Source of the DNA: Nitratireductor aquibiodomus NL21 = JCM 21793
Lineage (GTDB): Bacteria; Pseudomonadota; Alphaproteobacteria; Rhizobiales; Rhizobiaceae
Length of the DNA: 64,000 nt
Reading direction: 5' to 3'
Assembly: GCF_000615975.1 (NCBI RefSeq)
Contig: NZ_BAMP01000001.1
Location: 1-64,000, forward strand
Below, in pieces: positions 17,000 through 20,496 of the stretch (positions are counted from its first letter, which is position 1; each line of letters begins with the position of its first letter). The translations under genes and the position numbers were made by a program. A model generated the notes under the pieces. It was not told where the DNA came from. It worked only from the letters and a program-made list of their open reading frames with translations, and did not search any database.

Positions 17000-18187
17000 T
17001 CAGCTTCCGGAGAGGATATCGGCGGCAAGGCGGATGAGCTGCCGGTCGCTGCCGGCGGGTCCGAGAAGCGAGATGCCGAAGGGGGCACCATGCACCTGGC
17101 CGAGGGGGATTGTGATCTCCGGCCAGCCAAGCAGGCCGGCGATGGCGGTGAGTTTGAGTGCAAGGCCTCGGTAGCGGTCGAGCTCTTCCTGGGTTGCGCT
17201 TTTCAGTGGCGCAGCGGTTGGCTGGGTCGGCATGACCAGCACCATGTCGTGGTCGAAGAGCGCGGCGAAATCCTGCTGAAAGCGCCGGCGTTCCGCGCGG
17301 GCCCCGGCAACGGTTGCAGCGCTGATGCGGCTTCCAAACTCAAAGCGCTCCCTGACACCGGGGCCAAGTTCCGGTTTTGCACTGCGGATAAAATCGCCAT
17401 GCACCTCCCAGGCCTCAAAAGTCTGGATGATGCGGAAGCATTCAAAAAGCTGTTCCGGGGAACCAGGTAGCGCGAGGAAGGCGGCCTCCCGGTCGAAATG
17501 ATGGACGACGGTTGAAAGCATTGTGCCGTAGACGGCGCGCTCCTTCTCTCCGAAGAGGAGCGCTTCGAATTCCGGGATCCGGACGGGGCGTGCGAGGTCA
17601 TCGTCATACGGGTCGTCGCCAAGCAGCACTTCGCCGACACGGGCATAAGTTGCGGCGTCGCGTGCGAACCAGCCGAACGTGTCGAAAGAGGGGGCAAGCG
17701 GCATGGCGCCGTCGAGCGGGATGCGCCCATGGGTGGTGCGGAGGCCGATCAGGCCGCAATAGGAGGCTGGCGCACGGATCGAACCATTGGTGTCGGAGCC
17801 TGCTGCAATGTCGGCCAGTCCACCGGCGACGGCAGCCGCCGAACCGGAAGACGAACCGCCGGTGAAACGCTGGGGCGCGGCGCGATTGACCGGAGCCGGG
17901 TAATGGGCGTTCTGCCCGATCATGGAGAAGGTCAGTTCGTCTGTCTGGGTCTTGCCGATGAACCGCGCGCCCGCGTCGAGCAGACTCTGGATCGGCGGTG
18001 TGGTGCCCGGGGCGCAGGAATGGATTTCGGCCCGACGTGGATTGCCGCCACCGGTCGGATAGCCGGCAACGTCGAAAATGTCCTTCACGCCAAGCGTCAG
18101 GCCTGCCAGCGGACCCTCGCCCGAGGTCGGGGGAGGAGCGTCTGGATAGTCGAGGAAAGCGTTCAGCGTATCGCGCATCTTCATCAT
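17000..18187 (-). CDS. Amidase-signature hydrolase
   Basis: Serine amidase of 395 residues. The Ser-cisSer-Lys catalytic set is visible: the Lys in GVKDIFD, the Gly/Ser-rich FTGGSSSGSAAAVAGG loop, and the nucleophile region AAGSDTNGSIRAPAS, where N replaces the more usual G/S. It hydrolyses an amide of unknown identity; the family includes glutamyl-tRNA amidotransferase subunit A and many catabolic amidases, and no gatB/gatC is nearby. ATG at 18187 follows GACGAGG; in-frame starts up to 18265 extend into the upstream leader region and look unlikely. Confidence 0.88.
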   Translation of the reverse strand: MMKMRDTLNAFLDYPDAPPPTSGEGPLAGLTLGVKDIFDVAGYPTGGGNPRRAEIHSCAPGTTPPIQSLLDAGARFIGKTQTDELTFSMIGQNAHYPAPVNRAAPQRFTGGSSSGSAAAVAGGLADIAAGSDTNGSIRAPASYCGLIGLRTTHGRIPLDGAMPLAPSFDTFGWFARDAATYARVGEVLLGDDPYDDDLARPVRIPEFEALLFGEKERAVYGTMLSTVVHHFDREAAFLALPGSPEQLFECFRIIQTFEAWEVHGDFIRSAKPELGPGVRERFEFGSRISAATVAGARAERRRFQQDFAALFDHDMVLVMPTQPTAAPLKSATQEELDRYRGLALKLTAIAGLLGWPEITIPLGQVHGAPFGISLLGPAGSDRQLIRLAADILSGS

Positions 18188-18299
18188 CTTCGTTTTCCTC
18201 GTCGATCCCAGAGCGACAAAGGTCGGCATTCGCGCTCTTTTTTTCAAGCGCATAAAATTTTTCATTGATTGTGACAGTCGTTGCGACTATATCCGCGCT

Positions 18300-18731
18300 G
18301 CCCAAAGTCGCACGTGCCTGTGGGTGTCCGCCGGACCTCGAATATGGCGAGGAAACCGGTACGGTACCTGGACCTAACCGCTCCAGTCGGTCTGATGGCC
18401 AACCATCAAACCGAGGACATCTTGAAGCAACGACGGTGCGGGCCTTTCTGGTGTCTGCCGGCTGTCCAAAAGCCGGGGTTACTGAAGAGGCACACCTTCA
18501 TTGCCGGCAGTGCGGTTGGGGTCTCCCATCCAAAGCTGAGGCAGACAAAGCGCATCTTCGCCGCGTGGCGGGAATGCATCGTAGCGCGTTGTCGCATGAA
18601 CTGGTTCCGGTGCTCTCCACCTGCCGGCTCCCGTGTGCGCATGCCGCGCCCTTTGTCCACCGCGGAAGCGAGGTTCGCTTTCGCAGTTTCGAAGCTTCGG
18701 TAACGCGGCCCGGATGCCGCGATTGGAGAGA
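18300..18731 (+). ncRNA. Candidate speF-type structured leader of odc
   Basis: Alphaproteobacterial ornithine decarboxylase genes are known to carry a conserved structured leader called the speF motif. The present odc belongs to that gene family and has a 400-base structured upstream region, with GGTAC repeats followed by CTGGACCTAACCGCTCC near 18358-18385. Assignment is by gene context and structure; I did not run a covariance model, and boundaries are approximate. Confidence 0.45.
18704..18721 (+). promoter_or_regulatory. Hairpin just before odc ribosome site
   Basis: Perfect inverted repeat CGCGGC-CCGGAT-GCCGCG ending three bases before GGAGAG and 14 bases before the odc ATG. A stem here could affect ribosome access, or be the last helix of the leader. 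No T tract follows, so it is not a classic terminator. Confidence 0.5.
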
Positions 18732-18734
18732 CAC

Positions 18735-19867
18735 ATGGCCACCCAGCGCATTCTCGACTTCCTCGCCACCCGACGTCCCGACGGCCCCTGCCTCGTCGTC
18801 GACCTCGATGTTGTGCGTGACAATTACTGCGCCTTCGAAAAGGCACTGCCCGATTCCCGGATCTACTACGCTGTGAAGGCCAATCCTGCGCCGGAAATCC
18901 TGCGCCTTCTCGCTCAGCTCGGCTCCAGCTTCGACACCGCTTCCGTGGCGGAAATCGAGATGGCGCTGAATGCGGGCGCGACCGCAGATCGCATCTCCTA
19001 CGGGAATACGATCAAGAAGGAGCGCGACATCGCGCGTGCCTACGAGCTTGGCATTCGCCTGTTTGCCGTCGACTGCGAGGAAGAGGTGGAGAAGATCGCA
19101 CGTGTTGCCCCCGGTTCACGCGTGTTCTGCCGCGTCCTGACGGATGGTGCCGGGGCTGAATGGCCGCTCTCACGCAAATTCGGCTGTGTTCCGGCCATGG
19201 CGGTCGATGTTCTGCGCCATGCCCGAACGCTCGGCTCGATCCTTATGGCGTTTCCTTCCATGTCGGCTCGCAACAGACCGACCTTGATGCATGGGACCGT
19301 GCGCTGGCGGATGCCCGTGGTGTCTTCGGTGCGCTGGCGGATGAGGGCATCGTGCTGCGCATGGTCAACATGGGCGGCGGCTTCCCGACGCGGTATCTTC
19401 GTGACGTTCCGGCTGCCCAGGCATACGGTCAGGCGATCTTCTCGGCGCTGCGCAAGCATTTTGGCAACCGAATTCCCGAGACCATCATTGAGCCGGGCCG
19501 CGGCATGGTAGGCAATGCCGGCGTGATCAAGTCGGAAGTCGTCCTGATCTCCAAGAAGGCCGACAACGATAATGTGCGCTGGGTTTATCTCGACATCGGC
19601 AAGTTCGGCGGTCTGGCCGAGACCATGGACGAGGCGATCCGCTACCCGCTTGTGACGCGTCACGATGGCAGCGAAACGGCACCGTGCGTGCTGGCCGGTC
19701 CGACCTGCGATTCCGCTGACGTGATGTATGAGAAGACGCCCTATCCGCTGCCGCTGTCGCTGACCATTGGCGATGAAGTGCTGATCGAAGGTACGGGCGC
19801 CTACACCACGACCTACGCATCGGTGGCCTTCAACGGATTTGAGCCGCTTCGATCCTATGTGATCTGA
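18735..19867 (+). pseudogene. odc: Ornithine decarboxylase (alanine-racemase fold), frameshifted
   Basis: PLP enzyme converting ornithine (possibly also lysine) to putrescine, in the polyamine route that ends with homospermidine. The first frame has YYAVKANP with the PLP lysine K48, then SFDTASVAEIE and SYGNTIK. The second frame begins LDPYGVSFHVGSQQ and carries NMGGGFPTRY, EPGRGMVG and the active-site Cys in GPTCDSADVM. The break at about 19233 fits one lost C (GGCC to GGC). Corrected length is 377 residues, normal for rhizobial ODC. ATG at 18735 follows GGAGAG. Other features look functional. Confidence 0.88.
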
Positions 19868-19932
19868 CAGTGAAACGGGTTGCCCGCGCAAACCTGCGCG
19901 GGCCGGATTTCTCGGATTTCGGGATCGAGGCC

Positions 19933-20496
19933 ATGAACCAGGCTGTTGTCGGTGGCGCACCAGCGCACGCCTTTTCTATTCTTTGTGAAACCGCGCGGGA
20001 CTTGGCTGAGCGCGAGGCTCTGCTCGACCGTGTCATGGGACCGAAGCGCAGGCTGAAATCATCGGAGAAGCTGCGCCGTGGCCGTTTGCCGGCCGAAGGG
20101 CTGGCTTTCGTGGCGCGTGACGAGGCAGGATATCTGATCGGCTCTGTCCGGCTTTGGAACGTGCGCCTGGGCGCAGAGGGGGCAAACGCGCTCCTTCTCG
20201 GGCCGCTTGCGGTGGAGGCTGCGCTTTCGGGACGTGGCGTCGGGGCTGCGCTGATGCGCCATGCAATCGCCGAGGCGCGTCGACTGGAGCACACAGCGAT
20301 CCTGCTGGTTGGCGATGCTGCTTACTATGAGCGGTTTGGCTTCTCATCGGAGCTGACGGGTGCGCTTGCCATGCCCGGGCCCTATGAGACGGATCGGTTT
20401 CTGGCGCTCGAACTCCGGCCCGGTGCGCTCGCAAACGCATCCGGAACGCTCTGTGCCAGCGGTCGCACCGGGATCACCCGGAATCTGGTTGCGTAA
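19933..20496 (+). CDS. GNAT acetyltransferase, YhbS-like
   Basis: Predicted N-acetyltransferase of about 187 residues. The acetyl-CoA loop is LGPLAVEAALSGRGVGAALMRHAI, followed by ILLVGDAAYYERFGF. An upstream RERLLDR-like segment (EREALLDRVMGPKR) and RRGRLPAEGLAFVARD are typical of its subfamily. The in-frame GTG at 19870, three bases past odc, is an alternative start; ATG at 19933 fits the conserved region better. Tight linkage to odc suggests cotranscription and possibly polyamine or amine acetylation, but that is inference. Confidence 0.82.
   Translation: MNQAVVGGAPAHAFSILCETARDLAEREALLDRVMGPKRRLKSSEKLRRGRLPAEGLAFVARDEAGYLIGSVRLWNVRLGAEGANALLLGPLAVEAALSGRGVGAALMRHAIAEARRLEHTAILLVGDAAYYERFGFSSELTGALAMPGPYETDRFLALELRPGALANASGTLCASGRTGITRNLVA

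Follow-up and report, generated by a model that had tools for sequence, protein, structure and literature searches.

What kind of RNA precedes the ornithine decarboxylase gene (odc) of Nitratireductor aquibiodomus NL21, and how might it act on that gene? The stretch of DNA analyzed here (the window, 64,000 nt) contains a 435-nt intergenic region (18300–18734), which is flanked by a divergent amidase gene on the minus strand (possible starts at 18265 or 18187) and by odc (ATG at 18735). An earlier note had claimed a GC-rich, structured leader at this place, had named it as the speF motif, and had called the neighbouring genes intact. The leader claim stands: the region is intergenic, its predicted fold is unusually stable, and two covariance-model matches cover most of 18300–18582. 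The folding energy of the 435-nt RNA is −193.7 kcal/mol versus −174.3 (sd 6.4) for 100 dinucleotide shuffles (z = −3.03), and none of the 100 was as low. The features discussed below are collected in Table 1.

Table 1. Features of the odc leader and its surroundings (window coordinates; partner strands in the last column)
Feature	Position	Strand	Remarks
Putative promoter, TTGATT + CTATAT	18265–18299	+	TTGATT 18265–18270, CTATAT 18287–18292; start near G18300; by eye
ar45 module, RF02347	18300–18447	+	168.2 bits, cut-off 40; model 1–148, full length
GCCC, 5′ strand of ar45 closing stem (state 1)	18300–18303	+	partner 18440–18443; Rfam ar45 structure
Helix F, UCGCAC:GUGCGG (state 2)	18308–18313	+	partner 18510–18515; present in window minimum free energy (MFE) fold
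GCAA:UUGC, outer end of long bulged stem	18427–18430	+	partner 18501–18504; both strands nearly invariant
Helix C, GGUG (ar45):CACC (speF)	18435–18438	+	partner 18493–18496; second pair co-changes, p = 6.8e-11
GGGC, 3′ strand of ar45 closing stem	18440–18443	+	last two bases shared with helix D
Helix D, GCCUUUCUGGU:ACUGAAGAGGC	18442–18452	+	partner 18481–18491; absorbs ar45 U-tract
speF leader module, RF00518	18456–18582	+	91.1 bits, cut-off 37; model 1–153
P2 hairpin, loop GUCCAAA	18458–18476	+	6/6 pairs change on both sides among 45 leaders
P3, UGCC:GGCA, around P4	18502–18543	+	18502–18505 with 18540–18543; canonical in 143–149/150, nearly invariant
P4 hairpin	18514–18531	+	canonical in 150/150; shares G18514 and G18515 with helix F
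Candidate anti-ribosome-binding strand, GUCUCCCAUCCAA	18521–18533	+	pairs with 18723–18732 in window MFE fold
Helix E, GACAAAG:CUUUGUC	18544–18550	+	partner 18651–18657; 7 bp, long-range, Rhizobiaceae-type leaders
odc ribosome-binding site, GGAGAGA	18725–18731	+	begins 10 nt upstream of ATG 18735
odc, ornithine decarboxylase	18735–19867	+	PF02784 in both pieces, PF00278 in the second (Pfam)

Composition and distribution of the leader

The Rfam search that the earlier note had proposed matched speF far above its cut-off, upstream of odc and on the same strand, and the name given in the earlier note is correct. However, the first 148 nt belong to a second Rfam family, ar45, which had been overlooked. 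The two modules are arranged head to tail, and both stretches contain 60–61% G+C, in agreement with the GC-richness that had been noted. A scan of 18200–18800 up to an E value of 1 found nothing beyond these two families and no SAM-II match. The ar45 match resembles the known sRNA (Smr45C, SmelC706) over all 148 positions with 168 bits; however, RF02347 is handled as a separate sRNA gene, whereas here it makes up the 5′ third of an odc leader.

The speF element was described by Corbino et al. in 2005, and six polyamine-pathway compounds showed no binding according to the excerpts of that paper (PMC1273637). The earlier statement that no ligand has been established agrees with this. In the portions consulted of later literature, the function of the motif is still called unclear.

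Sequence conservation among relatives begins at approximately 18300 (GCCC), which speaks against a transcription start downstream of 18650. The putative promoter in Table 1 was picked by eye; a consensus scan of 18150–18800 gave no promoter-like site, with an E. coli-type consensus, and no terminator-like site. The description of the neighbours as intact does not hold for odc, since a one-base deletion near 19234 disrupts the frame that starts at 18735. The gene is intact (377 aa, 89% DNA identity to the window odc) in another genome of the genus, G188, and the best-matching locus (L252) has no gap at this position. The genome of the window is a draft (207 contigs, 86.6% complete); therefore, the deletion is possibly an assembly error. 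It may be a draft error or the mark of a young pseudogene. A GNAT acetyltransferase gene (19870–20496) starts 2 bases past the odc stop, and the two genes possibly form one operon.

At an E value of 0.001, 62 of 150 genomes from the order have a speF match, as do 85 of 101 from the family and 12 of 289 from the class; the corresponding counts above the Rfam cut-off were 50, 83, and 10. Matches to ar45 were found in 55 of the 150 genomes of the order. According to the coordinates, speF begins 6–12 nt after ar45 in 53 of these 55, and in the other two (G052 contig 29 and G089) the composite is present by model R1. This model was built from 45 leaders, and many of the genomes that it matches had contributed to it; its matches (62/150 in the order and 13/289 in the class, the last of the 13 being weak at 28.7 bits) are no independent test of sensitivity. 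At 153 of the 157 loci that were fetched, odc comes after the core in the same orientation, 198–431 nt from the core start. The four loci without odc (L096, L097, L153, and L155) have speF matches of only 25–28 bits and are probably spurious hits that RF00518 scores below its cut-off. They were left out before the set of 153 leaders was made, and three duplicates were then dropped to give 150.

A DNA-pattern scan yielded at least 80 named loci. All 80 listed match model R1, and odc lies in range at 73 of them; the remaining seven are situated where the fetched piece ends. The genera among the matches listed include Sinorhizobium, Bradyrhizobium, Mesorhizobium, Methylobacterium, Bartonella, Stappia, and Thalassospira. 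One genome, G205, carries two equal-scoring copies near the ends of contig 1 (13728–13883 and 4518011–4518166; L034 and L157); these possibly stem from a circular chromosome whose overlap was left unresolved.

The ar45 and speF families form one composite RNA

Covariation was surveyed over 17391 column pairs of the 150 leaders by counting same-branch changes on the odc tree (parsimony, hypergeometric), with pairs of few changes left unscored. A pair of the ar45 inner stem and a pair of P2 ranked first, and the best pair after them links ar45 to speF (p = 6.8e-11). It belongs to helix C, a helix of 3–4 bp, three pairs of which occur in a fixed register in 147 of the 150 parsed leaders (of 153); L076, scored as a failure, is a parsing error judging by its letters. 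A second leader set, not identical to the first, gave 59 of 60 parsed leaders (of 63). When the partners were shuffled among distinct types, 0 of 20000 shuffles were as good in each set. Other groups carry the variants GUAG:CUAC, GUAA:UUAC, GGAU:GUCC, and GAAC:GUUU (6 of the 150 leaders were unparsed in this listing).

Helix D adjoins helix C. Its strands are GCYUUUYUGGU in ar45, which takes in the supposed terminator U-tract, and the complementary ACUGAAGAGGC in speF. Ten of the 11 pairs are canonical in 133–149 of the 144–150 leaders with letters on both sides, and the eleventh (C.A in the window) is canonical in 74 of 150; the pairs vary mostly on one side. At the place inside helix D where most leaders have AAGAGG, L016 carries AAGGAGG, a perfect Shine-Dalgarno-like heptamer. 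The pair probability of GCAA:UUGC is 0.87–0.92 in transcripts ending at GUGCGG and 0.70–0.73 in full leaders. Together with P2, helices C and D and GCAA:UUGC form one long bulged stem of approximately 79 columns. When this structure (state 2 without helix F) was applied to 45 leaders, 87% of the cells were paired; 0 of 500 shuffles were as high, and slid versions reached 41–58%. Conserved base pairing in relatives, the lack of which the earlier note would have taken as a refutation, is present and includes the covariation of helix C. As judged from the aligned leaders, ar45 and speF make up one composite RNA before odc, tied together by a covarying helix between the two parts.

A further long-range pairing, helix E, was tried as a general feature and rejected as such. 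Its 3′ strand CUUUGUC occurs in 53 of the 64 leaders with GACAAAG and in 1 of the 86 without it; over all 150 leaders the best helix scored 16.8 versus 16.1 with swapped partners, and helix E is a local feature only.

The excerpts of the 2005 paper speak of 'around 80 conserved nucleotides', a 'long bulged stem-loop', and invariant outermost pairs (PMC1273637). The element described there, now RF00518, resembles that of the window in its place before odc, its sequence, and its P2 hairpin, and its stem of approximately 80 nt fits columns 48–126. The long bulged stem is probably the stem-loop of 2005 and hence probably not new. The covariation support for this stem is new, as is the recognition that the Rfam split hides it: the Rfam speF model holds P2, the GGCA:UGCC hairpin, and a few further pairs, but, unlike the structure presented here, it lacks helices C and D. 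In the excerpts of PMC1273637, neither the covariation of helix C nor exclusion by ar45 nor a partner of the ribosome-binding site was found.

The association of ar45 with speF was noted earlier in Bartonella (PMC7717549) and in S. meliloti (PMC2573895, PMC2873474, PMC7143759), as far as the consulted parts of these papers go. It might be an association of two independent RNAs, with ar45 as a trans-acting, Hfq-bound sRNA and speF as a separate odc leader. Such an arrangement would suit the Rfam type of ar45 ('Gene; sRNA'), the co-precipitation with Hfq in S. meliloti that is cited in an excerpt of PMC7717549, and the tabulation of SmelC706/smrC45/SpeF under trans-sRNAs in a part of PMC7143759. 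However, no separation of the two was seen among the 55 genomes, of 150, that carry ar45, and helix C ties ar45 to speF; we consider two separate RNAs quite improbable. The composite reading suggests instead that sRNA surveys and Rfam have split a single RNA into two halves, each with a family of its own; these families could possibly be merged.

Predicted competing folds of the leader

In the ar45 fold (state 1), the first bases GCCC pair with GGGC, and GUCG and UGC pair with CGAC and GCA, approximately 130 nt later. The speF stem employs the same GCAACGAC and the same strand from GGGC to the U-tract. Minimum free energy folds were compared in 147 leaders, three of the 150 having been left out. 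The closing stem (at least 3 of 4 pairs) is present in 128 of them for transcripts that stop directly behind the U-tract and in none for transcripts extended to GGCA; the latter show helix D in 136 leaders and helix C in 125. In a sample of every third of the 150 leaders (49 leaders), the mean probability of the closing stem is 0.92 in short versus 0.002 in long transcripts. With the downstream half shuffled, the stem probability is 0.14, and in each of the 49 leaders the real value is lower than that of its control. Any downstream sequence therefore weakens the stem, and the real one does so more thoroughly. The ar45 and speF folds are thus predicted to be mutually exclusive by energy folding, which ignores pseudoknots, proteins, and kinetics. 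The pairs of state 1 hardly vary among the leaders, except that closing pair 6–64 changes from G-C to A-U in 2 of 150 rows (L099 and L100, of one family), a single compensated change that favours state 1.

In a rival reading, the leader is a transcription attenuator: the ar45 fold, GCCC:GGGC with U's behind it, would act as an intrinsic terminator, the fraction of transcripts stopping there would control odc, and speF would do no more than fold later. GGGCUUUUUU is seen in many leaders that are not of the Rhizobiaceae type. In the excerpts available, a 148-nt RNA of S. meliloti, SmelC706, is listed under RF00518 (PMC2873474), and ar45 of Bartonella is reported to be expressed apart from a speF transcript of more than 700 bases (PMC7717549). 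However, the tract of the window is only CCUUUCUGG, and the consensus scan gave no terminator there. Changes in the U-tract mostly preserve the pairs of helix D. Moreover, the U-tract is transcribed before the refolding partner, which would therefore be unable to decide termination at that tract. Attenuation is unlikely on balance, though it keeps some weight.

Helix F is suggested in state 2, more weakly than helix C. Five of its six pairs have probabilities of 0.87–0.88 in transcripts ending at GUGCGG, where the helix closes a three-way junction; the values fall to 0.39–0.70 in transcripts reaching GGCA and to 0.32–0.39 in full leaders. In family f34 (18 genomes), C at 132 faces G in 7, A at 18 faces U in 5, and the other 6 have G-U, with a mismatch at 16–134 in 5 of the 18. 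A pair is lost with no compensating change in at least 12 of 263 leaders (GAGCGG in 6, GUGAGG in 4, and UUGCGG in 2), and Bradyrhizobium with GAGCGG is among these lineages. A shuffle test was weak (312/20000), with several 5′ strands mis-parsed, L030 and L075 among them. Because of the falling probability in full leaders and the counter-examples, helix F is kept as suggestive only.

The GUGCGG strand also reaches into P4, which shares two G's with helix F. P4 pair 136–152 changes from G-C to A-U with 4 co-changes (p = 3.1e-9). P3, which surrounds P4, was predicted in only 7 of 147 minimum free energy folds.

The ribosome-binding site and models of control

There is moderate evidence that the odc ribosome-binding site has a complementary strand in speF, UCUCCCAUCCAA. 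In the minimum free energy fold of the leader in the window, 18521–18525 and 18529–18533, that is, the 3′ strand of P4 and then a well-conserved UCCAA, pair with 18723–18732. The duplex between the P4 strand and its own site beats permuted sites (0/5000 in 150 leaders, with relatedness uncontrolled); by subset, the values are 0/5000 outside the Rhizobiaceae type (86 leaders) and 134/5000 inside (64 leaders, including that of the window). When sites were swapped with those of the nearest relative, which controls relatedness, the own site was favoured 46 to 24 (p = 0.012, uncorrected, one of five swap tests). Three negative-control swaps gave nothing (p = 0.15–0.81). The positive control with P2 gave 62 to 6, and placeholder letters at gap columns made its mean difference meaningless.

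Only 27 of 150 leaders have their best partner segment for the site within P4, with approximately 5% expected. When 75 leaders (every second of the 150) were folded to the start codon, the positions of the site were paired 0.72 of the time. The P4-region strand accounts for 6% of the leader; pairing of the site with it had a mean probability of 0.42, and the share of the site pairing with this strand exceeded 0.3 in 48 of the 75 leaders. This anti-ribosome-binding pairing is suggested at the same weaker level as helix F.

We tentatively propose a bistable translational switch, in which one odc leader would be ON in the ar45 fold and OFF in the speF fold; we put its chance somewhat short of even. 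In state 1, the 5′ end of the transcript (GCCC and GUCG) would be paired with GGGC and CGAC, and GUGCGG-GGG downstream would be left free. P4 could then form and tie up the UCUCCCAUCCAA strand, and the site would be open. In state 2, the 3′ strand of ar45 would join speF in the long bulged stem, and the 5′ strand would pair with GUGCGG. P4 would then be blocked, and UCUCCC/UCCAA would pair with the ribosome-binding site. The short ar45 RNA would arise from the odc leader, either because the transcript ends early or because it is processed. We infer the ON/OFF assignment, as well as a balance that is set by a polyamine-related signal acting directly or via a protein. Feedback from the polyamine pathway is likely because the odc context is constant, although the six compounds of 2005 showed no binding. 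Our confidence in the switch is lowered because the probability of helix F falls in full leaders. The comparison gives the motif a definite two-state model whose strands are named and could each be disrupted and restored by mutation in a laboratory rhizobium. How much putrescine these bacteria are supplied with, and how much homospermidine derived from it, depends on the control of ornithine decarboxylase, according to an excerpt of PMC13293326. A literature search confined mostly to openly accessible papers and to listings found none that describes ar45 and speF as competing folds or names a partner of the ribosome-binding site.

A more specific form of the switch would make ar45 and speF the two exclusive states of one alphaproteobacterial translational riboswitch. 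Its aptamer would be the three-way junction closed by UCGCAC:GUGCGG, and its ligand would lie outside the six compounds of 2005, with homospermidine or carboxyspermidine as first choices. We consider it unlikely that all of this holds. The SAM-II riboswitch of metA in alphaproteobacteria is likewise a leader able to act on translation; unlike here, its ligand is known (PMC9373788 and PMC1273637, from the portions consulted).

Control might also do without a ligand if the conserved long stem were a binding or cleavage site for a protein or an RNase, which would set the stability or translation of the odc mRNA. The length of the conserved helix, its conserved unpaired bases, and the absence of ligand binding in the excerpts of the 2005 study (PMC1273637) would be in keeping with such a site, which by itself does not account for the complementarity to the ribosome-binding site. 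We regard this explanation as rather improbable.

The leader of the enterobacterial speF gene of Salmonella reportedly exerts its control via an upstream ORF. Alternative conformations and a control involving arginine have been reported for this odc leader in the excerpts of PMC6386406, and it shares with the alphaproteobacterial leaders its role before odc; however, the aligned columns of the latter yielded no conserved ORF. Control in the enterobacterial style, by a translated upstream ORF that senses ornithine or stalls, was considered for the present leaders since two frames looked coding at first, one reading VTEEAHLHCxxCGW and one with a UUG start behind GAAGAGGC, and six aligned start codons are present in 95–150 of the 150 leaders. 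However, indels break the frames, and the stops vary, giving 2 to 526 codons among 133 leaders (20 of 153 did not fit the search pattern). At the six aligned starts, the commonest ORF length is common to at most 23 of 150 leaders. The scan for a conserved upstream ORF found none in the aligned columns of 150 leaders, with the poorly alignable stretch between GGCA and odc excluded. Both frames were ruled out on these three grounds (broken frames, ORF lengths, and the scan of aligned starts), and a leader-peptide mechanism is therefore very unlikely.

A further conserved block was observed at 18612–18665, approximately 70–125 nt before odc and at the same place in relatives. It contains UCUCCACC..GCCGG and UUUGUCCACCGCGG; relatives elsewhere carry CGUCUCCACAGCGG at this place.
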